The notes beneath the pieces are model-generated. The model was not told the origin of the DNA, made no database searches, and worked only from the letters and a program-made list of their open reading frames with translations. From an uncultured Pelagibacteraceae bacterium (GTDB lineage Bacteria > Pseudomonadota > Alphaproteobacteria > Pelagibacterales > Pelagibacteraceae), in assembly GCA_902554745.1 (NCBI GenBank), contig CACDQA010000004.1, positions 1-53,818 on the forward strand: a DNA stretch of 53,818 bases. The letters are read 5' to 3'. Shown piece by piece: positions 2,155 to 53,818 of this stretch; the stretch's first letter is position 1; every line of letters begins with the position of its first letter. A program made the position numbers and the translations under genes.

Positions 2155-2787
2155 ATGATTGCACACGCTATTTTCTTTTACACATTTTCTATAATTGCTG
2201 TTGTTTCAGCTATAATGGTAACCGCTTCTAAAAATACTGTTCATTCAGTATTTTTCTTAATTCTTGATTTCATAAGTATATCTTGTCTTTTCATAATGAT
2301 TGGCGCTGAATTTTTGGGAATGATAATGCTAATTGTTTATGTTGGTGCTGTAGCAGTTTTATTTTTGTTTGTTGTTATGATGTTAAACGTAGCTCAACAA
2401 AAAAATCAATGGTTTGCAGGTCAATCAACCTCTAAACACATTCCAGTTGGTTTAATTATAAGCACATTAATTTTCTTTGAAATTATAATTGTGATAGGTG
2501 GCTGGAAATATAAACCTGAAATTTTTGATATTAACAATTCACTTGCTAACACAAGTGTAAGCAACACTCATTCATTGGGCCAAATTTTATACACTGATTA
2601 TATTCATGTTTTTCAAATAAGTGGAATGATCCTTCTCGTAGCTATGATTGGAGCCATAGTATTAACTTTTAGACAAAGATCTGGAGTTAAAAGACAAAGT
2701 TATATCAAACAAATATCTAGAGAAAGAGTAGAAGGTGTTGAGGTGTTAGAAGTTCAGAGTAACAAGGGAGTTAAAATAGATGATTGA
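2155..2787 (+). CDS. nuoJ: NADH-quinone oxidoreductase subunit J
   Basis: Membrane protein with [29 protein letters not shown] motif. Confidence 0.97.
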
Positions 2788-3091
2788 TATAGGTTTAGGA
2801 CATTATTTGACTTTAGGTGCTGTTATTTTCTCAATTGGAGTAATTGGTATTTTTCTTAATAGAAAGAACATCATTGTTATTTTAATGAGTATTGAACTAA
2901 TATTACTTGCAGTAAATATCAACTTAGTTGCTTTTTCTATTTATTTGGGAGATTTGGCAGGACAAGTCTTTACTTTATTTATTCTCACTGTTGCAGCAGC
3001 TGAAGCGGCCATAGGATTAGCAATCATTGTTGTATATTTCAGAAACTCAGGAACAATACGAGTTGAAGAAATAGATAAGTTAAAAGGATAA
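2780..3091 (+). CDS. nuoK: NADH-quinone oxidoreductase subunit K
   Basis: Short hydrophobic protein with [18 protein letters not shown] and [13 protein letters not shown]; operon position. Confidence 0.97.
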
Positions 3092-3093
3092 CT

Positions 3094-5004
3094 ATGGAAC
3101 TATCAATTATATTCCTTCCACTTATTGCTTCAATTATATCAGGTTTTTTTGGCAGATATATCGGTGATAGAAATTCTGAAATAGTAACAAGTGTTCTAGT
3201 TTCAATTTCTGCACTCTTGTCAATTTATGTTCTTTATCAAGTAATCGTAAACCAATACGAAGAAAATATTGTTATAGCCACCTGGATAAGCTCAGGTTCA
3301 CTTGATGTAAATTGGTCGATGTTAATTGATCCTTTATCAGCAGTGATGTTAGTAGTTGTAACATCCGTATCTGCCTTAGTACACATCTATTCAATTGGTT
3401 ACATGTCTCATGATCCTCATAAACCAAGATTTATGGCTTATTTATCATTATTCACATTTGCAATGTTGATGCTTGTAACATCAGATAATTTTATTCAACT
3501 ATTTTTTGGCTGGGAAGGTGTTGGTCTTTGTTCATATTTCCTAATTGGTTTTTGGTTTAAAAAAGAAAGTGCAAATGCTGCAGCCATAAAAGCATTTGTT
3601 GTAAATAGAGTAGGTGATTTTGGTTTTGCTTTAGGAATTTTCTTAATATTTTATTTATTTGGAACAGTAAATTATTCAGAAGTTTTTCAACAAATTCCAA
3701 CAGTTGTAGATAAAAGTTTATCCTTTTTAGGTTTTGAAGTTAATGCAATAGATTTAGTTTGTTTGCTTTTATTTATAGGAGCAATGGGTAAATCTGCACA
3801 GATATTACTACATACTTGGCTACCTGATGCTATGGAAGGTCCAACTCCAGTTTCAGCGTTGATTCACGCAGCAACGATGGTAACAGCTGGTGTTTTTTTA
3901 GTAGTAAGATGCTCTCCAATTTACGAATATTCACCATTAATACTAAATTTTATAACTATCGTTGGAATGACTACAGCATTCTTTGCAGCAACGGTTGCTC
4001 TGGTTCAAACAGATATAAAAAAAATTATTGCTTACTCGACGTGTAGCCAACTTGGCTATATGTTTTTTGCAGCTGGAGTAGGTGCATACAATGTTGCTAT
4101 GTTTCACTTATTTACTCATGCATTTTTCAAAGCTTTATTATTTTTAGGATCTGGTTCAGTAATCCATGCATTTAAAGATGAGCAAAATATAAATAATATG
4201 GGAGGTGTATGGAAAAAATTACCATATACTTATGCTTTAATGATAATAGGAACGCTTGCTTTGACAGGTTTTCCATTTTTATCAGGATTTTATTCTAAAG
4301 ACGCAATTATAGAATTTGCGTATTTAAAAGGTAATACTACTGGTTATTATGCAGCTGGCATTGGAATAATTACAGCATTTTTAACATCTATTTATTCATG
4401 GAGATTGATATTTAAAACTTTCCATGGTGAGTACAATAACAAAGAGGTCAAGATAGAGGAAACACACGAGTCTCCATTAGTTATGCTTGTTCCATTATTT
4501 ATTCTTTCAATAGGAGCTGTTTTTGCTGGTATTCTATTTAAAGGACTATTTATCGGTCATGGTGAGAATTTATTCTGGGCAGAGTCTATTAAGTTTTTAG
4601 AGCCTTTGAGTACTGAGCACCCACCTTTATGGTTTTTACTTTTAACACCGTGTTTGGTTTTATTATCTATTCCAATTGCTTATTACTTATTTGTTAAGAA
4701 CAAAGAATTACCTTACTCAATAGCTTCAATGAACAAACCTTTGTATAATTTTTTAGTAAATAAATGGTACTTTGATGAGTTATATGATGTGTTGTTTGTT
4801 AAATCTTCAAAAAAACTAGGTTTATTTTTATGGAAATTTTTTGATGGAACCATAATTGATGGTTTTGGTCCTGATGGAATTTCTTCTTTTATAAAAAAAT
4901 GTTCAATTAAAGCAACCAAATTTCAAAGTGGTTTTATCTATCAATATGCATTTGTAATGTTGTTAGGTTTCTCTGCTTTACTAACCTTTTTAATAGTTAA
5001 ATAA
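3094..5004 (+). CDS. nuoL: NADH-quinone oxidoreductase subunit L
   Basis: Antiporter-like subunit; FFGWEGVGLCSYFLIGFW, HTWLPDAMEGPTPVSALIHAATMVTAGVFL. Confidence 0.98.
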   Translation: MELSIIFLPLIASIISGFFGRYIGDRNSEIVTSVLVSISALLSIYVLYQVIVNQYEENIVIATWISSGSLDVNWSMLIDPLSAVMLVVVTSVSALVHIYSIGYMSHDPHKPRFMAYLSLFTFAMLMLVTSDNFIQLFFGWEGVGLCSYFLIGFWFKKESANAAAIKAFVVNRVGDFGFALGIFLIFYLFGTVNYSEVFQQIPTVVDKSLSFLGFEVNAIDLVCLLLFIGAMGKSAQILLHTWLPDAMEGPTPVSALIHAATMVTAGVFLVVRCSPIYEYSPLILNFITIVGMTTAFFAATVALVQTDIKKIIAYSTCSQLGYMFFAAGVGAYNVAMFHLFTHAFFKALLFLGSGSVIHAFKDEQNINNMGGVWKKLPYTYALMIIGTLALTGFPFLSGFYSKDAIIEFAYLKGNTTGYYAAGIGIITAFLTSIYSWRLIFKTFHGEYNNKEVKIEETHESPLVMLVPLFILSIGAVFAGILFKGLFIGHGENLFWAESIKFLEPLSTEHPPLWFLLLTPCLVLLSIPIAYYLFVKNKELPYSIASMNKPLYNFLVNKWYFDELYDVLFVKSSKKLGLFLWKFFDGTIIDGFGPDGISSFIKKCSIKATKFQSGFIYQYAFVMLLGFSALLTFLIVK

Positions 5005-6485
5005 TGAATTTTCCTATTCTTTCATCTTTAATATTATTGCCAATAGTTGGTGCTTTATTTTTATTTTTTACTAAAGATAAAGAAGGAAATAATTTAACTG
5101 CTAAATATGTTGCTTTATTTACAACTGTAGTAAATTTTTTAATTTCGATTTATCTGTGGATTTCTTTTGACCAATCAACATCTAGTTTTCAATTTGTAGA
5201 AGATAGAGTATGGATTGAAGGATTTATTAATTATAAAGTTGGAGTAGATGGTATTTCAATTTTATTTATTATTTTAACTACATTTATAACTCCCATTTGT
5301 ATTATATCTGTAAATAATTCAGTCAAAAATAGATTAAGAGATTTTTTAATTGCAATTCTAATCATGGAAAGTTTCATGATAGGTGTTTTCTGTGCACTTG
5401 ATTTAGTTGTATTCTATTTATTTTTTGAAGCTGGCTTAATACCAATGTTTTTAATTATTGGTATTTGGGGAGGTGAAAGAAGAGTTTATTCAGCATTCAA
5501 ATTCTTTTTATACACACTGTTAGGATCTGTTTTGATGTTGGTTGCAATAATTTCAATTTATTGGATTACGGGAACAACTGACGTAGTTCAACTTTATGAA
5601 ATTGGTATTGATGTTAAATATCAAAATCTTTTGTGGTTAGCATTTTTTAGCTCATTTGCCGTAAAAACACCTATGTGGCCAGTTCATACTTGGTTACCCG
5701 ACGCACACGTTGAGGCTCCTACTGCTGGATCTGTTTTGTTAGCTGCTATATTATTAAAGATGGCTGGATATGGCTTTATAAGATTTTCTTTAGGCCTTTT
5801 CCCAGTTGCATCAGAGGTATTTACTCCATTAATTTACACCTTGAGTGTTATAGCAATCATATTTACCTCACTGATAGCTTTAATGCAGGAGGATATGAAA
5901 AAATTAATTGCTTATTCATCTGTTGCGCATATGGGTTTTGTAACTTTGGGTATATTCACTTTGCAACAGCAGGGAATTGAAGGAAGTATAATTCAAATGA
6001 TTAGCCACGGATTAGTTTCAGCAGCATTATTTTTAACTGTTGGTGTAGTTTATGACAGAATGCATTCTAGATTAATAAGTACATATGGAGGACTAGTTTC
6101 TGTAATTCCAAAATATTCAATATTATTTATGTTATTTGCTTTGGCATCCCTAGGTTTACCTGGAACCAGTGGTTTTATCGGTGAGTTTTTAATATTAATG
6201 GGAGCTTTTAAAGATAATTTTTTAGTGGCAGTTATAGCAAGTATTGGGGTGATTTTAGGAGCTGCATACATGTTGTGGCTTTATAAAAGAGTAATATTTG
6301 GAAAATTAATAAACAAAGATCTTAAAACAATTTTAGATTTAAACAGATCTGAATACTTCATATTAAGTTGTTTAGCTGCACCAATATTATTTTTTGGTTT
6401 TTATCCTGATCCATTAATAAACACTATTGAAGTTTCTGTGACCGACTTAATTAATATGCATAACACAAATATAGCTAGTAAATAA
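5004..6485 (+). CDS. nuoM: NADH-quinone oxidoreductase subunit M
   Basis: HTWLPDAHVEAPTAGSVLLAAILLKMAGYGFIRF and SHGLVSAALFL. Confidence 0.98.
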   Translation: MNFPILSSLILLPIVGALFLFFTKDKEGNNLTAKYVALFTTVVNFLISIYLWISFDQSTSSFQFVEDRVWIEGFINYKVGVDGISILFIILTTFITPICIISVNNSVKNRLRDFLIAILIMESFMIGVFCALDLVVFYLFFEAGLIPMFLIIGIWGGERRVYSAFKFFLYTLLGSVLMLVAIISIYWITGTTDVVQLYEIGIDVKYQNLLWLAFFSSFAVKTPMWPVHTWLPDAHVEAPTAGSVLLAAILLKMAGYGFIRFSLGLFPVASEVFTPLIYTLSVIAIIFTSLIALMQEDMKKLIAYSSVAHMGFVTLGIFTLQQQGIEGSIIQMISHGLVSAALFLTVGVVYDRMHSRLISTYGGLVSVIPKYSILFMLFALASLGLPGTSGFIGEFLILMGAFKDNFLVAVIASIGVILGAAYMLWLYKRVIFGKLINKDLKTILDLNRSEYFILSCLAAPILFFGFYPDPLINTIEVSVTDLINMHNTNIASK

Positions 6486-42022: not shown

Positions 42023-42932
42023 ACATCCAGAAAAAGAAAACAAACCGGTTAATCCGATTAAAAAAAAACCTCAATGGATTAGATCAAAACTTACAAATAG
42101 TAAGGAGTTTTTTTTAACTAAAACAATAGTTAATAATAATAATCTTGTAACCGTCTGTCAGGAAGCAAACTGCCCAAATATAACAGAGTGTTGGAGTAAG
42201 CGACATGCAACTTTTATGATTATGGGAGATACCTGTACAAGAGCTTGTGCTTTTTGTGATGTTAAAACTGGTGTACCTGGAAAATTAGATCAACTTGAAC
42301 CTGTTAAGATTGCAGAAGCGGTAAAAAAATTAAATTTAAAACATGTTGTGATTACTTCAGTGGATAGAGATGATTTAGATGATGGTGGATCAGAACATTT
42401 TTTTGAAGTAATTAATCAAACTAGAAAATCAAATCCAAATACTACTATTGAAGTTCTTACACCTGATTTTTTAAGAAAAGGAGATGCTTATAAAAAAGTT
42501 TTAGATGCTAAACCAGATGTTTTTAATCATAATATTGAAACTGTCCCTAGTCTTTATTTAAAAGTTAGACCAGGTTCTAGATACTTTGCATCTTTAGAAC
42601 TTTTGAAAAATGCAAAAAAAGTTAACAAAAATATTTTTACTAAATCAGGAATAATGGTTGGCTTAGGGGAGACAAGAGATGAAATTTTACAAGTGATGGA
42701 TGACTTAAGAGCTGCAGATGTTGATTTCATAACAATTGGTCAATATTTGCAACCATCTACTAAACATTATCCATTAGATCGATATTACACACCAAAAGAA
42801 TTTGAGGATTTAGGAACAATAGCAAAAGCTAAAGGATTTTTGTTAGTGTCTTCATCCCCTTTAACTAGATCTTCATATCATGCAGATGAAGATTTTGCGA
42901 AACTTCAACAAAACAGATTAAAAAATAATTAA
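42012..42932 (+). CDS. lipA: Lipoyl synthase
   Basis: [13 protein letters not shown] and radical [16 protein letters not shown]. Confidence 0.98.
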
Positions 42933-43387
42933 TGCCAAAAGCGTCAGTTACGAGATTAATTGATCAAAGAAAAGATAAACTTATAGATTTTGTTTTAGAT
43001 ATTGAAAAATATCCTGAGTTTATTCCTTTCTGTGATAGTTCAAAAGTATACGAGAGAAATGAAAACGGGGAAATTATAAATATAATTGCAGATTTAACAA
43101 TTGGAAAAGGACCTTTTAGAGACACTTTTAAAAGTGATGTAAAGTATATAAAAAAAGATGATTTAATTCATGTTGTAAATATAGGTGGTCCATTGAAGTT
43201 TTTAGAGAATAATTGGAAATTTAAAGATAAAGGAAACCAACTTAACGGACTTAAAACAGAAGTTATTTTTGATATCGATTTTGAAATTGAAAATAAATTT
43301 TTAAATATCCTGATGACAAAATCTTTTCAATTTGGGTTAGAAAAAATTGCTGATGCCTTCCAAAAAAGAGCAGAAAATATAATTTAA
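42932..43387 (+). CDS. COQ10/RatA-type START-domain protein
   Basis: FVLDIEKYPEFIPFCDSSKVYER, LENNWKFKDKGNQLNGLKTEVIFDIDFEIENKFL; located after lipA. Confidence 0.85.
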   Translation: MPKASVTRLIDQRKDKLIDFVLDIEKYPEFIPFCDSSKVYERNENGEIINIIADLTIGKGPFRDTFKSDVKYIKKDDLIHVVNIGGPLKFLENNWKFKDKGNQLNGLKTEVIFDIDFEIENKFLNILMTKSFQFGLEKIADAFQKRAENII

Positions 43388-43452: not shown

Positions 43453-44814
43453 ATGAAATCATTTTTTAAATATATTCTATTTTTATTTTTATTTAACACC
43501 TTTTTAATTTTAGATACTAATTCAAATGAGGAATTAAAAAAAATAGACAAACAACTTAAGCAGGTAGAAGATTTATACAAGTCCGGTGTTTTTGATGATC
43601 AAAGCTATCAAAATGCCAAAGATGAACTGATTACTAGAAGATTAGAAGTAAAAAAAAAAATTAATACAAAAAAAAATACCAATCCCGATTCTAAGACTTT
43701 AGAAAAACAGTTAGAAGTAATTGAAAAGCTATTAAATGAAGGTGTTTTAAGCGAGGAAGAGTATTTAAAAACAAAAACATACTTAGAAAAAAAACAACAA
43801 GAAGGTACAAATATTGATCTTAAAGATATATCAAGTGATGATGCTTTAGAAATTGCTACATATGATCTTAATGTTAAAAAAAGTCCTGGAAGAAAGAATT
43901 GGGAAAAAGCTGAATTAATTTATAAAAATTATAAAATTATAACTTTTAGACCTGGAGGTATAAAAGTAGTTAGAATTTCAGACAATAAAAAATTAGTTCA
44001 CATAGTTGATAACTACAAAGTTAAATTTTTTAATGGTGGAGAAAAGCATATTAGAATTGATAAAACAGTTTTTAAGAGAGAAAAAAATTTAGATCCATCA
44101 AAAGCTATAGCCAAAACGTTGAGTGATATAAAAAAACTTTTACAAAATACAGATGAATTTTTAGATCCAAAAAAAGAAAAAGAAATATTCGATACAGATC
44201 AACACAAATTGATTATGTATATTGATGATGTTAAAATTCTTAAATATGAGGGAAGATATGTTAAAAAACATAAAGCGTTTTTTTATCAAGTTTTAACATC
44301 AAGAAACCAACCGTTTCATTTTTATATTAAAATAGACGCGAAAAAACCAATTGCATTAAACATGGAATTCTTTAACGCTAAAATCGATAGAGCAATACGA
44401 AAGGTTAAATCTCAGTTAGCACTTGAATATGATGTATCAGAAGCTGAAATACAAAAAATTATTGATAAGCAAATAGGGGAGGCAACTGAGAGAAGCGTTG
44501 AAGATGCAATGGAAAAAGCAATAAATGATAGCGTAATAGAAGCTATTGAACAATCTGTTGGTGAAGTTTTATCTGCAAATCTTGTTAATGCTATAGAACA
44601 AGCCACTGGTGAAGCTATAGATGCTTCTATTGAAGCGGAATTAGCTGATGCAATAAATGCTGAAATAGCATACGCTGTATCTATAGGAATTGACGAAGCA
44701 GCAGTCACGGCAGGCTGGGAAGCATACTTTGAGGTGTTAGCCCAAGGAGGAACTATGGAAGAGGCATCAGCAGCTGCTTATGAAGCCTGTGGTTCTGCAT
44801 GTGATAACTATTAA
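43453..44814 (+). CDS. Exported protein with two SHOCT-like helical motifs and an Ala-rich repetitive C-terminus
   Basis: N-terminal signal-like segment; motifs LKQVEDLYKSGVFDDQSYQNAKDELI and LEVIEKLLNEGVLSEEEYLKTKTYLEKK; Ala/Glu/Ile-rich tail. Confidence 0.7.
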   Translation: MKSFFKYILFLFLFNTFLILDTNSNEELKKIDKQLKQVEDLYKSGVFDDQSYQNAKDELITRRLEVKKKINTKKNTNPDSKTLEKQLEVIEKLLNEGVLSEEEYLKTKTYLEKKQQEGTNIDLKDISSDDALEIATYDLNVKKSPGRKNWEKAELIYKNYKIITFRPGGIKVVRISDNKKLVHIVDNYKVKFFNGGEKHIRIDKTVFKREKNLDPSKAIAKTLSDIKKLLQNTDEFLDPKKEKEIFDTDQHKLIMYIDDVKILKYEGRYVKKHKAFFYQVLTSRNQPFHFYIKIDAKKPIALNMEFFNAKIDRAIRKVKSQLALEYDVSEAEIQKIIDKQIGEATERSVEDAMEKAINDSVIEAIEQSVGEVLSANLVNAIEQATGEAIDASIEAELADAINAEIAYAVSIGIDEAAVTAGWEAYFEVLAQGGTMEEASAAAYEACGSACDNY

Positions 44815-44822
44815 AATAAATT

Positions 44823-46901
44823 ATGAAAAAATATTTGTTTTTTTTAATTTTTATTTTTTTAACTACAGAAAATTCATTTGCAAAAATCTCTATAAGTGAC
44901 CAAAAAAAATTAATTAATAATAATACAATTAAAATTAATTTAAATTGTAATAATTTAGTAAATAAACTTGGTGGTCTTAGTAGCATTGATTTACTTTGGC
45001 TTGGAAACCTAAATGAGAAAGAACATCAACATGCATTAATCTCAATAGATTCCCTTGAAAATAATAAAATTTTTTATGTATGTGAAAATGTTAATAAAAC
45101 AAAAATTACTAGCAATAATAGTATTGATGTATTGAATGAAAGAAATTTAACAAAAATATTTTATGATTCAAAAGATATGTTCACATATGTATTTTCTATT
45201 TCGTCAAAAAAAAGTAGATCGTACATTATGTCCACACTTAATTTAAATAGATACAACATTGATTATAACACTTTAAACCAAGCTTATGTTGAAGGGTTGA
45301 TGGCAATTAGTAATAATTTAGAGATAAAAAAAATTGTAAAGAAAAAAATTAAAAAAAAAGAAGCCAAAAATAATGATGCTGAAAAGAAAAATACTATTAA
45401 GGAAATAAAAAGTTTATCTGAAGGTGATTATTATTTATTTGGTCACTCTACTACAGGAGAAAAATTTTGGGGCTCCACAATGTCCATTTCCAATATTGTA
45501 CAGGTTGGAAGGGCTTTTTCTTCAGAAGGTAAAACTTGTTATATAAGATCTGAGCAAACTACTAAAAATGCTCCATTTAAAGGAATATTTTATTTAAAAT
45601 GTCCTAACCAAAGAATTGATGGATCTTGGACACAAAAAAGTGCAACTAGCCCAGGTTTAGGTCAAGGATTTGCTGATGATGGAGAAGTTATTACAGCATT
45701 TTTTTCAGTCAATAAAAATACAATAATTAAATTTGCAAATAATTATTTTGATAAAGGATCATCAAAAATTGAGATTGCAGCAGTTAAAGAAAAAGAACAA
45801 AAAGAAATTAAACAAAGTGTAAGCAAGGATAAAAGTCCTCCAAAAATTATAATTGATGAAAATTTAACTTTTAAAAATTCAAATTATATACTCGAAGGTA
45901 AGGTTGTAGACAAAGGCTCTAAGACTATTTATGTAGAAATTGATGGTGATATTCAAAAAGCTACTGATGGTAAATTTTCTTTTAATAGATTTAGTCCCTT
46001 TAACGAAAAAGTTAAAATTGTAGCTACAGACCAATGGGGAAATAGATCTAAAGAAAAAATAGTTAACATTAAAATAGATACTCAGTCTACTGTAGTAGCT
46101 AAAAAATTAGAAAAACTAAATCCTAGTAAAATTCAATTTAACCAACTATCAAAAGATAAAGTTGCAATAGTAATTGGAATTGAGGGTTATGACAGAACAC
46201 CTAAAGCAACATATGCTAATTTAGATGCTAAATATTTTTATGAATATGCTCGATTAACCTTTGGTATTGATAAATCAAACATTAAATTATTAATTGACCA
46301 AGATGCAAATTTAATTCAATCTTTAGGTGTTTTAAAAAAATGGCTGCCTGGAAAAATTAACCAAAACAGAACTGAGCTAGTTATATTTTTTGCAGGTCAT
46401 GGTTTAGCATCTAACGACGGTAAGGAGCTCTATTTGTTACCTCAGGATAGTGATCCAGATCTATTATCTCGAACAGCTTTGTCTAGAAGTGAATTGTTTA
46501 AAACAATTTTAGATTTAAGCCCAAAAAAAGTTATTATGTTTTTTGATACCTGTTATAGTGGTATTTCTAGAGATGAAAAAACTTTATTAGCTTCGGCTCG
46601 ACCTGTTAGATTAGCATCAAGCGAACAAGGAATTATTCCAGATAATTTTACAATATTTTCTGCCTCGCAATTAGATCAGATTTCTTCAGGTCTCAAAGAG
46701 GCTAACCATGGGATTTTTTCTTATTTTCTTATGAAAGGTTTAGAGGGTAATGCTGACTTAAACAAAGATAAAAAAATAACTAACGGAGAATTGTTAACTT
46801 ATATGGATCAAAATGTTTCTCAAAAAGCTGCTGAGTTAGGAAGAAAGCAAAATCCCTCATTGTCAGGCAACAAGGACGATGTTTTAGTTAGTTATCGATA
46901 A
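44823..46901 (+). CDS. Exported caspase-like (peptidase C14) protein, paralog 1
   Basis: Signal peptide; p20-like core VAIVIGIEGYDRTPKATYANLDA, FFAGHGLAS (His) and MFFDTCYSGISRDE (Cys); preceding Ig-like segment. Confidence 0.88.
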   Translation: MKKYLFFLIFIFLTTENSFAKISISDQKKLINNNTIKINLNCNNLVNKLGGLSSIDLLWLGNLNEKEHQHALISIDSLENNKIFYVCENVNKTKITSNNSIDVLNERNLTKIFYDSKDMFTYVFSISSKKSRSYIMSTLNLNRYNIDYNTLNQAYVEGLMAISNNLEIKKIVKKKIKKKEAKNNDAEKKNTIKEIKSLSEGDYYLFGHSTTGEKFWGSTMSISNIVQVGRAFSSEGKTCYIRSEQTTKNAPFKGIFYLKCPNQRIDGSWTQKSATSPGLGQGFADDGEVITAFFSVNKNTIIKFANNYFDKGSSKIEIAAVKEKEQKEIKQSVSKDKSPPKIIIDENLTFKNSNYILEGKVVDKGSKTIYVEIDGDIQKATDGKFSFNRFSPFNEKVKIVATDQWGNRSKEKIVNIKIDTQSTVVAKKLEKLNPSKIQFNQLSKDKVAIVIGIEGYDRTPKATYANLDAKYFYEYARLTFGIDKSNIKLLIDQDANLIQSLGVLKKWLPGKINQNRTELVIFFAGHGLASNDGKELYLLPQDSDPDLLSRTALSRSELFKTILDLSPKKVIMFFDTCYSGISRDEKTLLASARPVRLASSEQGIIPDNFTIFSASQLDQISSGLKEANHGIFSYFLMKGLEGNADLNKDKKITNGELLTYMDQNVSQKAAELGRKQNPSLSGNKDDVLVSYR

Positions 46902-49402
46902 TGAAAAGATTAATTTTAAGATTATTTATCATATTTAATTTTATTTTTTTTGGAATTTTTAATGTTAATGCAGAAAATCTTTTTATTGATTCACCAGAAC
47001 TTTCACATTTAAAAAAAGTAAAAAATATAAAAAATAAAAAAAGTAAACGTAATAAAGATGGTATGACTTATGTTGGTCAAAAAGGATTACTAATATGGAA
47101 TGGTTTTGGGATATTACGATTTAAAAATGGAGATATATTTGCTGGAAAATTTGTAAAAGGTGATATGAGAGATGGTGCTTGGAGTATTAATGGAGACATT
47201 TCATATGAAACTTACGAATATGACAGTGAGGGAAAATTTAAAACTAATGCTGCTGGAGATCCTATTATTAATAAAACTACATTCAGACCAGCAAAAGAAT
47301 ATGAAATTGATTATATTAAAGAAAATGTATTTTTGAAAAATAAAATAACCTATGAAGAATATTTGAAATTAACCGGAAAGGACAAACTTTTAGTTAAAAA
47401 TGAGAAAAAAATAGAAAAAAAAGATAACAAAAAAGAAAACGAATATTCTGAAATTAAAAGCACAGGGTTTAATATTTTCAGTGGAGTATTCGAAGATAAA
47501 ACACCTTATGTTATTGAAGCATATTATAAAGACGATTGTATTCAACACGGATTAGTTAGGTATTTAACTGACGATAAAAAAAAATCAAAACAAGATGTGT
47601 ATGGAAAGTTCGAGAATTGTTCAGTATGGGACCCAGACTCAAAATTTGCGAATGTATTTTTTGATTCAAAAGGTGTAATAGAAATTGCGTTTCATAAAAA
47701 GGATGTATCTCATATTTATGGTATAAATCAAATGGTTGGTATTCAAGTTAAGGATCTACCAAATAGTAAAGGAGTTCAAATTGTAAGTTTTTTAAAAGAT
47801 CTTCCAGCTATTGAAACAAACTTAAGTGTTAACGATATAATTATAAAAGTTAACGGAAACGAAGTAGAAAATACAACTAAATTTATTCAATTAATAAAAG
47901 AAAACAAACCTAATGAAAGAATTATTATTCATTATGTGCCCAACAACGAAATAAGCAATGATTTTAATTTTGATAGATCAAATGTTAAAAATTTAGAAAT
48001 TATTCCAAAATTAGTAAAATCAAAAGTAGAATTAAAATTATCTTATCTTGTTGAAAAAAAAGAATATGTAGAATTTTTATATAATCACAGAACAGGCGAG
48101 TCTTATAATTTGCCAGATCAAGTAATATTAAAAAAAGATACACAAGAATGGAAGGATAGACAAAAAGTTTTAAAGACGGACTTTAAAGCGCTCGAAAATT
48201 ATTATAATTTAATTAAAAAATCTAGATCAAATCAAATTCCACTTTTTGATTTTAGTCAGCTTTATGTTGTTAGCAATAAATCAATTTCAAATAAATCTGA
48301 CAACATTGCTAAAGAGGAATTTAAACCAGATGGTCTTGACGATAAAGATCCACCAATTATCAAAGTCGCAAATAATTTTACTTTTGAAAGTAGTAGTTAT
48401 TCAATTAAGGGAGAGGTTAAAGATGATAAATCTGATATAATTTATTTAGAAGTTGATGGAATTCTATCTGAAGCAAAAAATGGAACATTTGAAATTGATA
48501 GATTTAGCCCAGTTGATGAACAAATTAAATTAGTAGCAATAGATAAATGGGGTAACAGATCAGAACCAACGATAATTAGTGTCAAAATAGAAAAGAAAAA
48601 AATGATTGCTAAACAACTAGATAAACTTAATCCATTAGTAAATAAAGTACAAATAGCAGAAGATAAAGTTGCTTTAATAATTGGCATAGAAAACTATCAG
48701 AAAACACCAAAAGCAAGTTTTGCTAATCTTGATGCTGAATTTTTCTATGAATATTCGAAAAATATCTTTGGTATTAAAGATGAAAATATAAAATTACTTG
48801 TAAATGATCAGGCAAGTTTAATAGATACATTGGGTGCATTGAACAAATGGTTGCCTGGAAAAATAAAAAAAAATAAAACAGAGTTATTAATTTATTTTGC
48901 TGGTCACGGGCTAGCATCTTCAGATGGAAAAGAACTGTATATTCTTCCTCAAGATGGTGATAGCGATTTATTAGCAAGAACTGGAATATCTAGAACAGAA
49001 CTCCATGACACTATTGCTAAATATTCTCCAAAAAATGTGACTATATTTTTGGACACTTGTTATAGTGGTGTTTCAAGAGACGAACAAACTTTACTAGCAT
49101 CAGCTAGACCAGTAAGGATAATTGCTAACGATCAGAGTGCTCCAAAAAATTTCACAATATTTTCAGCTTCTCAACTCGATCAAATTTCATCAGGTTTGAA
49201 AGAGGTTAAACACGGCATCTTTTCATACTTTTTAATGAAAGGCTTAGAAGGTAAAGCAGATTTAAACAATGATAATAAAATTACTAATGGTGAACTTCTT
49301 GTTTATTTGGATGAGAATGTCTCTCAAAAAGCAGCTGAACTTGGTAGACAGCAAAATCCTTCATTTGCAGGTGATCCAGAAAGAGTATTAGTTAGTTATT
49401 AA
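46901..49402 (+). CDS. Exported caspase-like (peptidase C14) protein, paralog 2, with MORN-like and PDZ-like N-terminal regions
   Basis: Signal peptide; same catalytic core (YFAGHGLAS, FLDTCYSGVSRDE); PDZ-like GIQVKDLPNSKGVQIVSFLKDLPAIETNLSVNDIIIKVNGNEV; MORN-like GLLIWNGFGILRFKNGDIFAGKF. Confidence 0.87.
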   Translation: MKRLILRLFIIFNFIFFGIFNVNAENLFIDSPELSHLKKVKNIKNKKSKRNKDGMTYVGQKGLLIWNGFGILRFKNGDIFAGKFVKGDMRDGAWSINGDISYETYEYDSEGKFKTNAAGDPIINKTTFRPAKEYEIDYIKENVFLKNKITYEEYLKLTGKDKLLVKNEKKIEKKDNKKENEYSEIKSTGFNIFSGVFEDKTPYVIEAYYKDDCIQHGLVRYLTDDKKKSKQDVYGKFENCSVWDPDSKFANVFFDSKGVIEIAFHKKDVSHIYGINQMVGIQVKDLPNSKGVQIVSFLKDLPAIETNLSVNDIIIKVNGNEVENTTKFIQLIKENKPNERIIIHYVPNNEISNDFNFDRSNVKNLEIIPKLVKSKVELKLSYLVEKKEYVEFLYNHRTGESYNLPDQVILKKDTQEWKDRQKVLKTDFKALENYYNLIKKSRSNQIPLFDFSQLYVVSNKSISNKSDNIAKEEFKPDGLDDKDPPIIKVANNFTFESSSYSIKGEVKDDKSDIIYLEVDGILSEAKNGTFEIDRFSPVDEQIKLVAIDKWGNRSEPTIISVKIEKKKMIAKQLDKLNPLVNKVQIAEDKVALIIGIENYQKTPKASFANLDAEFFYEYSKNIFGIKDENIKLLVNDQASLIDTLGALNKWLPGKIKKNKTELLIYFAGHGLASSDGKELYILPQDGDSDLLARTGISRTELHDTIAKYSPKNVTIFLDTCYSGVSRDEQTLLASARPVRIIANDQSAPKNFTIFSASQLDQISSGLKEVKHGIFSYFLMKGLEGKADLNNDNKITNGELLVYLDENVSQKAAELGRQQNPSFAGDPERVLVSY

Positions 49403-49417
49403 AAGAATTTTTATTTT

Positions 49418-50680
49418 TTAAGCACCAGTAAATTCGGCCACGTACTGTTCAAGTTCTTTAAAAGCTTCAGTATTTTTTAATTTATTTACCTCTGCTTTAA
49501 CACTTAAGCTGCTATCAATTTCGGCAATAAAGTTTTTATAGGCAAGACTTACTGGGAATTCTATTACAACAAAAGTTCTATATTTTCCGTCAGCTATTGC
49601 AGCCATTTTTGTTTTGAATATTTTATATCCTGTGATTGTTGCATTTTTTACAACAACATTTGAAATTCTTTGCATTTCTGTTTTAAGAGTTAGATCTGCA
49701 TCTACACCTGCTTCTTTGATAACTAAATTAGTTTTGCTACTAATTCTGTTTTGCATTTGCGTTGATAATTTAATCAACGCATTTTCAACCGCTCTTTGTT
49801 CTGAATTATCTAGATCAGCAGAGATTGCACTTCCTCTAGCATACATAATTGTTTCCGAGCTTTGTGGCATTTCAACATACCAATCAGGAATTTCTGCGTT
49901 AATTTTTAATTCTTCTTCTTGTTTAAGTTTTTTGACTTCTTCAAATTGTTTTCTTAAAGCAGCTATATAATCATCTTCAGTATTAAACTCATATTCAGAC
50001 ATTGGGGTTTCACCCATAAATAAAATTTCTTTTTTTACTCCTTCAATAGCTTCTAATCTAGTTTGCTTTTTTTCTTCAGCTTTTCTCTCTTCTTCTGCTT
50101 TTTTTTCAGCCTCAGCTTTTTCAATTTTTCTTTTCTCTTTAATATCCTCAATTTGTTTTTTTAAAGCTTTTATTTGTTCATCAGAGTCTATATCACTTGT
50201 ATCTATTATGGGCTCTTCTCCTAAAGCTGCTAATTCATCTTTAAGCATTTCAACTGCAACAGCGATTTTTGCATCTCGTTTCTTTTTATCTTCTTCAGCT
50301 TTCTTTTTAGCTTTAACTTCTTCAATTTGCTTTCTTAATGCTATAATTTCTTCATCTGCTTCTAGTTCTTTAGTATCATCAGACTCAGGTTTTTCTCCTA
50401 AATCTTCTAATTCTTTTTTGAGTTCAGCTTTTAATGCTTCTATTTTTTTTAATTTTTCTAATTGAGCTTCTAATGCTTCAATCCATTTTTCATCTTTTGT
50501 AAATATATTCTTTTTTTTAACTGGCTTCACACCTAAATCTGATATCTCTTTTTTGAGTTTATTAATTAATTGTCTTTTAGGAGTGTGGTCATTTGCAATC
50601 GAGTAATCAAAATTCGAAAAAGATAGTAAAATTGCAAATAAACTAATGGTTATAAATTTTGTTATTTTTTCAATGATCAT
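49418..50680 (-). CDS. Exported coiled-coil repeat protein with C-terminal LPP20-like domain
   Basis: Signal peptide; four degenerate LKKExxxLGxxP...IxALxxQxExxK repeats; IPDWYVEMPQSSETIMYARGSAISADLDNSEQRAVENALIKLSTQM resembles the LPP20 family. Confidence 0.7.
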   Translation of the reverse strand: MIIEKITKFITISLFAILLSFSNFDYSIANDHTPKRQLINKLKKEISDLGVKPVKKKNIFTKDEKWIEALEAQLEKLKKIEALKAELKKELEDLGEKPESDDTKELEADEEIIALRKQIEEVKAKKKAEEDKKKRDAKIAVAVEMLKDELAALGEEPIIDTSDIDSDEQIKALKKQIEDIKEKRKIEKAEAEKKAEEERKAEEKKQTRLEAIEGVKKEILFMGETPMSEYEFNTEDDYIAALRKQFEEVKKLKQEEELKINAEIPDWYVEMPQSSETIMYARGSAISADLDNSEQRAVENALIKLSTQMQNRISSKTNLVIKEAGVDADLTLKTEMQRISNVVVKNATITGYKIFKTKMAAIADGKYRTFVVIEFPVSLAYKNFIAEIDSSLSVKAEVNKLKNTEAFKELEQYVAEFTGA

Positions 50681-51480
50681 TTAATTAACATATAACCAGA
50701 ATAATGTTTTTCCATCAAGATATTTGTTTTTGAAAACTGCTTTCTTAATCCCTCTATTTCAGCATATTCATCGAGCCAATTAATTTTTTTTTCAGATGCA
50801 ACAAATATAAAGTATTCATCTACTTTATTTTTTTTAATTTCTTCTGGAAAGTAAGCTTCGTATTTCAATACTAATTTTCCATCCACTAAGTCGTTAGTGT
50901 TTTTATTGAATTCTTTGTTGGGAAAAATTTTTGTTATTACATTATATTTTTTTCCTCCATAAGGTAGCCACTGAAAAATAGTCATATACATTTTTTTTGA
51001 AGTATCTATTTCGATTTCAACATTTTCACCAGATCTAAAGATTTCCTGATTTAATTTTACATTAAATTGAAATGTTGGATCCAAATTTTTTTTAATTGGT
51101 TCAACATTTGCTTTAATCGTGACTTCACAAAAAAGTATTTCTGTACCAAGCTCTTTGTCGTATACTTTATTGGTTATTTTTGAGCTAGTTATCTCCCCAT
51201 TTAATTCAAATAAAGATAATTGATTTCTTTCACAATCAAATTCACCATCTACTTCTGAGCAATTAGACACAACTTCAGAAGAAATAGTTTGTCCTAAAGA
51301 TTTTATTATTGCCTTTTTTTTAGCTTTTTCTTCTGCTATTTTACATGATTGAAATTTGGTATAATTTTTACCTAAATGTTTATGTTTTCCAGTTTCAACA
51401 ACTATCTCAGCAATTGATGGAGACATGAATATTAAGAATAAATAACCTAATATAATTATAAATTTTTTAATAAAATTCAT
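50677..51480 (-). CDS. Exported DUF4384-like protein with FlgT/LPP20-like N-terminal region
   Basis: Signal peptide; FQFNVKLNQEIFRSGENVEIEIDTSKKMYMTIFQWLPYG...ITKIFPNKEF resembles DUF4384; overlaps the neighbouring start by 4 nt. Confidence 0.7.
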   Translation of the reverse strand: MNFIKKFIIILGYLFLIFMSPSIAEIVVETGKHKHLGKNYTKFQSCKIAEEKAKKKAIIKSLGQTISSEVVSNCSEVDGEFDCERNQLSLFELNGEITSSKITNKVYDKELGTEILFCEVTIKANVEPIKKNLDPTFQFNVKLNQEIFRSGENVEIEIDTSKKMYMTIFQWLPYGGKKYNVITKIFPNKEFNKNTNDLVDGKLVLKYEAYFPEEIKKNKVDEYFIFVASEKKINWLDEYAEIEGLRKQFSKTNILMEKHYSGYMLIK

Positions 51481-51502
51481 TAAATCTCAAATTTAAATTT
51501 AA

Positions 51503-53029
51503 TTATTTATTTTCATTAATTAATGTAGCTACATTAACAACATTTGGTAACATTTTTTCATATAACAATGATTTGTTAAAATTTGTTTTATTAACAGGAA
51601 CACTTTTTTTAAAATTAAAGATTTCATTTATTTTATTACTTGATACACCAAATCCCATAGCTGTTTCTATAACACCTGTCGCTTTCGCAACTTCAGAAAT
51701 ATTTGTTGCTGCAAAAATTACTCCTACTAAATCACCATTTAAATTAATTACAGGACCACCGCTATTACCAGGATTAACAGTTGCTGATGTTAAGAATATA
51801 CCGTCACCATCTCCAACAAAAACCTTGCTAACTATCCCTTCGGTAATTGTTGGATAATCAAAAGTTACACCTGCAGCAGGATAACCTAAAATTATAACTT
51901 CTTCACCAGGCAAAGGATCAACAAATTTATCCTCATCAAAAGAAAATTTCTTTTTGAAAGGTTTTTCCAATTCAAGTATTGCTAGATCATAGTTCTTAGA
52001 AACTCTTAAAACTTTAGCATTTCTTGCATTGCCAATACCATTTCTTACAGCAATTTTTTTGGCATTTTCAATTACATGAATATTTGTAATTACATATTTA
52101 CCATCACCTATAATAAATCCACTACCACCAGAATTAGGTACAAACGCAAACTCTTCAAATTGAGGAACATTTTTATTTTCATCATAATTAGTTATCTCTT
52201 CCTCTTCATATTTTTTTTGATTTTTTTTATTATCTTTTTTAATTTTTATAGGCTTGTCAAAGAATTTTGGATTAACCGATAATATCCAAGCTTTTGCTTT
52301 CCTCTGTTTTTTTTTATTACGATTAAATTCATAATATTTGTAAACAATTAATTTATACTCAATTGCTTTGTCTTTGTTGCCATCGAATAAATGTAAGCTA
52401 GCCAATTGATTTAAAACTTTTATATTGTTTGGATCTCTCTTTATAAATTCTTCTAAAATTTCAATTGCTTTTTTAGTTTCATCAAATGAACTAAAAAAAT
52501 TTGATATAGCTAAAGCAACTTCAGCATCTTTTCTGTTCTCATATAAAGTATTTAATATATTAAACCCTTCTTCACTTTCGCCTAGTCTAGTTTTTGCAAT
52601 AGCCAAAATAATTTTAGGACGAATTTTATTTGAGTTTAACTTAATTGCTTTTTCTGAATACTTAATCGCCCCATCCAATTTACCCTGGGCAAGTCTCACT
52701 TCTGCTAAACCAATGAAGGTTAAAGCTTCTGTTTCTTCATTAGATGTAAAAAAATTCTTTTGATAAAATTCTTCAGCTTTATCAATTTGATTAATTTTTA
52801 AATAAATGTCTCCAAATAAAAGATCTATCTTTTCTTGTTGATTTTCATTAGAAATTTTTATTTTTTTAAGTTTATTTATAGCCTCTTCTAAGTTGTCTCG
52901 ATTAATTTCAGCCCTAATTTCGCGTAAATCATTATTGAACTGATTTGCATATAAAATATTTGAATTGAAAAATAAAGTTGCAAATACAATTATAAAGAGA
53001 AGTCCTATTTTAGATTTATTAATCTTCAT
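51503..53029 (-). CDS. Exported TPR-repeat protein fused to a trypsin-like (HtrA-type S1C) serine protease domain
   Basis: Signal peptide; TPR-like helices (AEEFYQKNFFTSNEETEALTFIGLAEVRLAQGKLDGAIKYSEKAIKLN); triad motifs TNIHVIENAK, NYDLAILELEKP, NPGNSGGPVINLNGDLVG. Confidence 0.88.
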   Translation of the reverse strand: MKINKSKIGLLFIIVFATLFFNSNILYANQFNNDLREIRAEINRDNLEEAINKLKKIKISNENQQEKIDLLFGDIYLKINQIDKAEEFYQKNFFTSNEETEALTFIGLAEVRLAQGKLDGAIKYSEKAIKLNSNKIRPKIILAIAKTRLGESEEGFNILNTLYENRKDAEVALAISNFFSSFDETKKAIEILEEFIKRDPNNIKVLNQLASLHLFDGNKDKAIEYKLIVYKYYEFNRNKKKQRKAKAWILSVNPKFFDKPIKIKKDNKKNQKKYEEEEITNYDENKNVPQFEEFAFVPNSGGSGFIIGDGKYVITNIHVIENAKKIAVRNGIGNARNAKVLRVSKNYDLAILELEKPFKKKFSFDEDKFVDPLPGEEVIILGYPAAGVTFDYPTITEGIVSKVFVGDGDGIFLTSATVNPGNSGGPVINLNGDLVGVIFAATNISEVAKATGVIETAMGFGVSSNKINEIFNFKKSVPVNKTNFNKSLLYEKMLPNVVNVATLINENK

Positions 53030-53110: not shown

Positions 53111-53818
53111 ATGTTTTTATTTAAAAAAAATTTTTTATTTTATTTAATTTTTTCATTATTATTTTCTTTTAATTTACATGCAGGTATGTGGGGTAAAGGT
53201 GAGCTTAAACTTTCAAAAGAAAGCATGGAACATTTAATGATGTACATGTATGGAGCAGGGAGCCCTGAATACTCATGGACTTCTAAGAAAAAAAACAAAC
53301 CAGACGTATTTGCTATTTCTAAAGATGGTAGTAGCTCGTTTTATATGTATTGTCCTTATTCACAATGCATGGAACCAAACCTGCCTCAAATCATAAAAAG
53401 CTGTGAAAAAAATTCTAACGGCTCACCCTGTAAGATTTTTGCTTTAAAAAGAAGAATAGTTTGGAAAAATGAAGGATCAAAAATTAAAATCAAAACATCA
53501 ATGCTAAAAGATCCAATTTCAATAGCTAGGGCAATACAAAATGGAGGTTTTTATGATGGTGACATTAATAAATTAGCAGGCATAGATTATAAAACAGGTT
53601 TCACAACAGATAAAACAATTACTGGAGAAATAGATAGTTATGATTATCCACTTTTAATATCAGCTCTACCTTCAGGCACAAAAGACTCATGGAGAGATTA
53701 TGTAGAAGGAGGTAGTGAAAAATATAAAGCTTGGGTAATGGCAAAAAGAAAAGATGGTGGTATGACATATGGATGGGAGGCAAATGATATATCATGGAAA
53801 GATGTAACTAAAAAAGCT
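53111..53818 (+). CDS. Exported hypothetical protein, 3'-truncated by window end
   Basis: Open frame from ATG at 53111 to window end (236 codons, no stop): MFLFKKNFLFYLIFSLLFSFNLHAGMWGKGELKLSKESMEHLMMYMYG...; absent from the ORF track because no stop codon is reached. Confidence 0.75.
   Translation, partial: MFLFKKNFLFYLIFSLLFSFNLHAGMWGKGELKLSKESMEHLMMYMYGAGSPEYSWTSKKKNKPDVFAISKDGSSSFYMYCPYSQCMEPNLPQIIKSCEKNSNGSPCKIFALKRRIVWKNEGSKIKIKTSMLKDPISIARAIQNGGFYDGDINKLAGIDYKTGFTTDKTITGEIDSYDYPLLISALPSGTKDSWRDYVEGGSEKYKAWVMAKRKDGGMTYGWEANDISWKDVTKKA

Follow-up and report, generated by a model that had tools for sequence, protein, structure and literature searches.

The window analysed here is a whole contig of 53,818 nucleotides from a SAR11-type genome, whose assembly comprises 799,725 bases in 55 contigs and is 59% complete. 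Preceded by ratA (42932–43387), six consecutive genes lie at 43453–53029 in the two convergent blocks described by the first-pass annotation, with 15 bp between the blocks. On the forward strand, a SHOCT-like protein of 453 amino acids with a signal-like start (43453–44814) is followed by two caspase-like proteins: CASP1 (44823–46901), made up of a signal peptide, an N-terminal domain of unknown fold, an Ig-like segment and a C-terminal caspase domain, and CASP2 (46901–49402), with a signal peptide, a MORN-like N-terminus, a PDZ domain, an Ig-like segment and a caspase domain. On the reverse strand are a TPR-trypsin protease with a signal peptide, TPRs and a trypsin-like domain (51503–53029), a DUF4384 protein with a signal peptide, an α/β N-terminal domain and a C-terminal Ig/macroglobulin-like DUF4384 domain (50677–51480), and an LPP20 protein with a signal peptide, coiled coils and a C-terminal SHS2-type LPP20 domain at residues 265–371 (49418–50680). 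Two details amended the earlier description, namely the MORN-like plus PDZ composition of the CASP2 N-terminus and a seventh forward-strand gene (53111–53818), which starts with a signal peptide and is cut by the contig end. Since this gene is predicted to be exported by the rule given below and its relatives adjoin caspases elsewhere (loci L027, L031, L033, L037 and L039), the module probably extends beyond the contig end.

The caspase, trypsin and LPP20 profile matches anticipated by the first-pass annotation were found, with the window copies of DUF4384 and SHOCT falling short of the Pfam cut-offs; for the SHOCT-like gene the matches, to SHOCT (2.8e-4) and GvpG, were all sub-threshold. Judged by a crude simple rule rather than by SignalP, six of the seven genes between 43453 and the end of the contig start with a signal peptide, compared with two of the 42 other ORFs in the window (Fisher p about 1e-5), and the module products are predicted to be exported, with a periplasmic location. 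The exception is the SHOCT-like gene, which satisfies only a weaker version of the rule.

Both caspase-like proteins have a caspase p20 fold with the His-Cys dyad of an orthocaspase (Peptidase C14), recognised through C14 or NCBIfam caspase models. CASP2 matched Peptidase_C14 (1.1e-12) and PDZ (9.7e-9, residues 280–348); CASP1 had no Pfam match and was identified by an NCBIfam caspase model (2.5e-16), and a PDB sequence search with it found nothing. The two proteins are 61% identical across the C-terminal half of CASP1. The caspase domain spans residues 421–692 in CASP1, with His526 (codon 46398) and Cys577 (codon 46551), and residues 561–833 in CASP2, with His669 (codon 48905) and Cys720 (codon 49058). 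His and Cys are kept in all 33 caspases compared, 31 of which also have an EF-hand-like DxNxDxxI...E loop (NADLNKDKKITNGEL in CASP1).

Complete caspases share a layout of a signal-like start, a variable N-terminus often followed by a coiled coil, an Ig-like segment (Glucodextran_B-like) and the C-terminal caspase domain. The caspase domain is under strong purifying selection and the N-termini are fast-diverging and mosaic: caspase domains were alignable in 351 of 351 compared pairs, with a median identity of 54%, and N-termini in only 47 pairs, while dN/dS in orthologous pairs was 0.01–0.07 for the caspase domain as against 0.16–0.41 for the N-terminal part. N-terminal dS was also raised in several pairs (1.05 compared with 0.35 for the caspase domain in L032/L035, for example), which points to recombination or old alleles and is no proof of positive selection. 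Caspases of one locus resemble each other more closely (median identity 64%) than those of different loci (53%). Strong relatives of CASP2 were found, the window aside, in only three of 197 family genomes (G114, G188 and G128), all of them module carriers.

Domains were identified in the N-termini of some caspases, namely MORN and PDZ (the CASP2 kind, L027 and L028), SBP_bac_8 (L029) and TPR (L073); the other N-termini gave no profile matches. The L029 caspase (2203–5949), fused to the solute-binding domain SBP_bac_8 (2.4e-25), is a single open frame of 1249 amino acids. Such a fusion would suit proteases whose N-termini are binding domains and which break down external peptides or trim proteins at the surface. 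However, SBP_bac_8 was seen in one caspase only, the module includes no recognised transporter genes, and caspases are normally specific, not digestive; nutrient acquisition or surface remodelling thus appears very improbable.

Caspases at the C-terminus of toxins have been described in polymorphic toxins (PMC3482391), and beside several islands, as we call the module loci, are arrays of up to 11 divergent paralogues of a small exported family. Both observations are compatible with secreted antagonism, in which a polymorphic toxin or contact-dependent system would deploy the caspases as toxin-like effectors and the arrays would supply immunity proteins or substrates. The family was found in nine of 14 island carriers compared with three of 34 non-carriers, and the five carriers in which it was not found (incomplete genomes) count against such a role. 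In addition, polymorphic toxins have a conserved N-terminus and a variable C-terminal toxin, whereas the module caspases show the reverse, a conserved C-terminus behind a variable N-terminus, and we rejected a polymorphic toxin on this basis. With no dedicated secretion gene recognised in the loci either, secreted antagonism seems improbable. The small paralogues, of approximately 195 amino acids and with the motif DDIRDFQIEGMSIGDSLLDYF, form tandem arrays at L031:4820–11531, L033:1–5040, L039:1744–15440 and L030:11049–14388; their similarity is higher in upstream and signal-peptide DNA (63–73%) than in the mature part (52–53%). At L028:5955–7010, a protein of 352 amino acids consists of two tandem copies of the small-family domain.

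The TPR-trypsin protease matched Trypsin_2 (2.8e-24) plus TPRs and, as a trypsin-like serine protease should, has an intact triad of His318, Asp348 and Ser423 (codons starting at 52078, 51988 and 51763), which is invariant in 14 of 14 orthologues; its trypsin domain is nearest to Do/HtrA models. The LPP20 protein scored above the profile cut-off (2.1e-6; 28.5 bits compared with 25.9). Its AlphaFold model, with long coiled coils and an SHS2-type domain, matched Helicobacter pylori Lpp20 (5OK8) with a TM score of 0.65 on the target, in agreement with an SHS2 fold. The window copy has no lipobox for a lipoprotein anchor, a lipobox being present in the L037 and L039 copies only. A FlgP-type ring former was considered and rejected, as the β-hairpin insertion is absent and the insertion between the helix and the second strand is helical in the LPP20 model; because the ring-forming hairpin was not seen in the model, we do not claim a ring. 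For the DUF4384 protein, the window copy scored below the gathering cut-off of PF14326 (6.5e-4; 20.2 bits compared with 27), and an orthologue from another alphaproteobacterium (L073) scored above it (31.8 bits). The α/β N-terminal domain in its model (pLDDT 76) is FlgT_N/LPP20-like by inspection and has two invariant cysteine residues, C74 and C83; a fold search returned only generic Ig/macroglobulin-like matches, and a PDB sequence search found nothing.

The same genes are found together elsewhere in SAR11. In a set of 19 loci (the window and 18 further neighbourhoods), biased in that most were found via DUF4384 or trypsin, all 19 had DUF4384–LPP20 with one to four caspase genes and 17 had the trypsin, which was missing in L058 and L062. 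A clear SHOCT orthologue, beside caspases, was present in six (the window, L027, L029, L037, L052 and L067). Thus, of the six-part membership first proposed, the core of DUF4384, LPP20 and at least one caspase stands as an invariant set, but the trypsin is only nearly invariant and SHOCT is optional. Across a genus sample of 399 genomes, trypsin orthologues (E below 1e-70) occurred in 11 and LPP20 in 12, with all 11 inside the 12 (hypergeometric about 1e-20). The 19/19 co-localisation and this genus-wide co-occurrence rule out a chance neighbourhood and bear out the expectation of a co-inherited module rather than scattered homologues. The module is found in a few percent of SAR11 genomes, and its carriers are mostly single-cell genomes of Pelagibacteraceae.

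One locus, L035, is rearranged. Compared with L032, L034 and L038, approximately 4.3 kb holding the C-terminal half of LPP20 and two caspases have the opposite orientation, and the two edges (86–128 and 4390–4430) form an imperfect inverted repeat of 43 bp. As a result, DUF4384 is separated from the C-terminal half of LPP20, and the LPP20 N-terminus is joined to a caspase in the same reading frame; the inversion may act as a switch, or may be a chimera from amplification of the single-cell genome.

Judged by its flanking genes, which were named by inspection except for those tested by Pfam, the island lies at about six places. The commonest is from rarD to tRNA-Ser/sdhE/recG; the others are left of nhaA, from rlmB/tuf to a gamma-glutamylcyclotransferase-like gene, from etfA to ETF-QO, beside rseP-like and amt genes and, in the window, after ratA. 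Complete genomes that lack the island show empty sites: rarD, tRNA-Ser, sdhE and recG adjoin one another, and the gene next after ratA is cinA-like. From these arrangements, the module is best read as mobile. Its G+C content is the same as that of the remaining contig, so recent acquisition from a distant donor is not indicated by composition. It is carried by few genomes and at several sites, as an accessory element in a streamlined genome, where the first-pass annotation had called such a module surprising.

The same pattern argues against envelope quality control, in which an HtrA-like trypsin and the caspases would have a regulated house-keeping role under stress, the removal or processing of damaged envelope proteins, and would be anchored at the outer membrane by LPP20 and DUF4384. 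Although the Do/HtrA-like trypsin domain, the PDZ domain of CASP2 and the match of the LPP20 fold to H. pylori Lpp20 would all agree with such a function, patchy carriage at several sites and multiple mosaic caspases are unlike house-keeping, and we consider it unlikely. Exported, island-borne proteases with a conserved effector and fast-changing sensor ends fit a conflict system in the envelope better.

Beyond SAR11, a class-wide search detected DUF4384 relatives in three of 289 genomes, the window included, and in a search across the phylum (399 genomes) the window was the sole match. Two further lineages of alphaproteobacteria also have the gene set: G633 (L073) has a caspase, a trypsin, DUF4384, a GNA1162-like TPR lipoprotein and LPP20 together, and G1242 (L113) has DUF4384, LPP20 and a caspase. 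L111, L112 and L114 carry trypsin–DUF4384–LPP20 with no caspase nearby which, together with the trypsin missing from two of the 19 SAR11 loci, shows that the parts are separable. DUF4384–LPP20 was also found on a Comamonadaceae contig. A contig filed under a Crocinitomicaceae MAG (L056) has the gene order and lengths of SAR11 L036 and L057; its match to L036 in both respects suggests that it is probably a binning error.

Three viral contigs (L100:5007–6480, L101:414–1791 and L102:4974–6448) carry a DUF4384-like gene next to an LPP20-like gene, both with signal-like starts, among phage genes and without the proteases; no named-phage relatives of these pairs were found. Searches of viral contigs with the caspase, LPP20 and small-family proteins gave no relatives, and those with the trypsin gave generic matches only (27–28%). 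The LPP20 scan did not return the LPP20-like genes of the three contigs, so such scans miss distant relatives. Plasmids gave no DUF4384 matches. A phage- or plasmid-borne module was rejected, as the viral and plasmid searches yielded only the DUF4384–LPP20 pairs on the three viral contigs. The occurrences beyond SAR11 indicate that the DUF4384–LPP20 pair is the most portable unit, to which the proteases seem to have been recruited.

Taken together, our results suggest an extracytoplasmic sensor–caspase proteolytic module, mobile and diversifying, with conflict or defence as its most likely use, a reading to which we assign a probability of roughly 0.5. The DUF4384 and LPP20 proteins would form an envelope-associated scaffold or regulatory unit, and the exported caspases would be sensor-effectors, in which the variable N-terminal domain and coiled coil detect a signal in the periplasm or at the outer membrane and the Ig-like linker relays it to the conserved C-terminal caspase domain, perhaps Ca2+-dependent via the EF-hand-like loop. 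The TPR-trypsin may be a partner protease, either activating the caspases or activated by them, and the active caspase would cleave proteins of an invader or of the cell's own envelope. Conflict with, or defence against, phages or other envelope attackers would be the likeliest use. The regulated protease cascade and the stress, cell-death-like or anti-phage functions suggested by the first-pass annotation are hypothetical. SAR11 bacteria are among the most abundant ocean cells, streamlined and with few obvious defences. In its most specific form, the proposal is an extracytoplasmic immune system in which diversifying exported caspases sense phage adsorption, DNA entry or another envelope attack and respond by periplasmic proteolysis, with the LPP20/DUF4384 scaffold and the partner trypsin. 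This anti-phage role is plausible and our leading guess, but a tentative one. Mobility, patchiness, sensor diversity and the phage-borne DUF4384–LPP20 pair, which could interfere with the module, lend it indirect support; it is weakened by the exported location, unlike that of known caspase defence systems, and by the neighbourhood, as no established defence genes were recognised beside the module and PADLOC gave no system match, only generic caspase- and protease-domain matches.

Our literature searches found no description of this module, which is no proof that none exists, and several known systems share parts of it. The pseudo-orthocaspases, also of alphaproteobacteria, combine the same three domain types, an active trypsin, a p20 caspase fold and DUF4384, in one polypeptide (PMC6426788). 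However, their caspase dyad is changed to QC, whereas the module caspases have an intact His-Cys dyad, are encoded by separate genes with signal peptides and are accompanied by LPP20. Canu and protease-activated nuclease systems (PMC12799240) resemble the module in that their caspases bear Ig-like or TPR domains and that they include trypsin-like proteases, which are activators there. Canu as described defends on DNA via a nuclease, a linked gated MBL-fold enzyme, whereas the module proteins carry signal peptides and Pfam, NCBIfam and PADLOC scans of the module genes in the window recognised no nuclease. Variable partner domains are likewise a feature of EACC1 and related caspase/trypsin conflict systems (PMC8195603), and the module caspase domains are nearest to the NCBIfam EACC1-associated caspase model NF047832; at 59.8 and 63 bits, compared with a cut-off of 140, they are not of EACC1 type, and no EAD/EACC1 or NTPase partner was recognised at the module. 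The LPP20 SHS2 fold is shared with H. pylori Lpp20, Campylobacter FlgP and Vibrio FlgT, of which FlgT and FlgP assemble into rings at the outer membrane (PMC12222027); in the module loci, we recognised no flagellar genes. The compared caspase/trypsin defence systems act inside the cell on intracellular targets (PMC12799240, PMC8195603), from which the predicted exported location of the module differs. For the uncharacterised domains DUF4384 and LPP20, the module provides a common context that can be tested and, if our reading is true, it would place a caspase-type response in the bacterial envelope, in contrast with these caspase/trypsin defences inside the cell.
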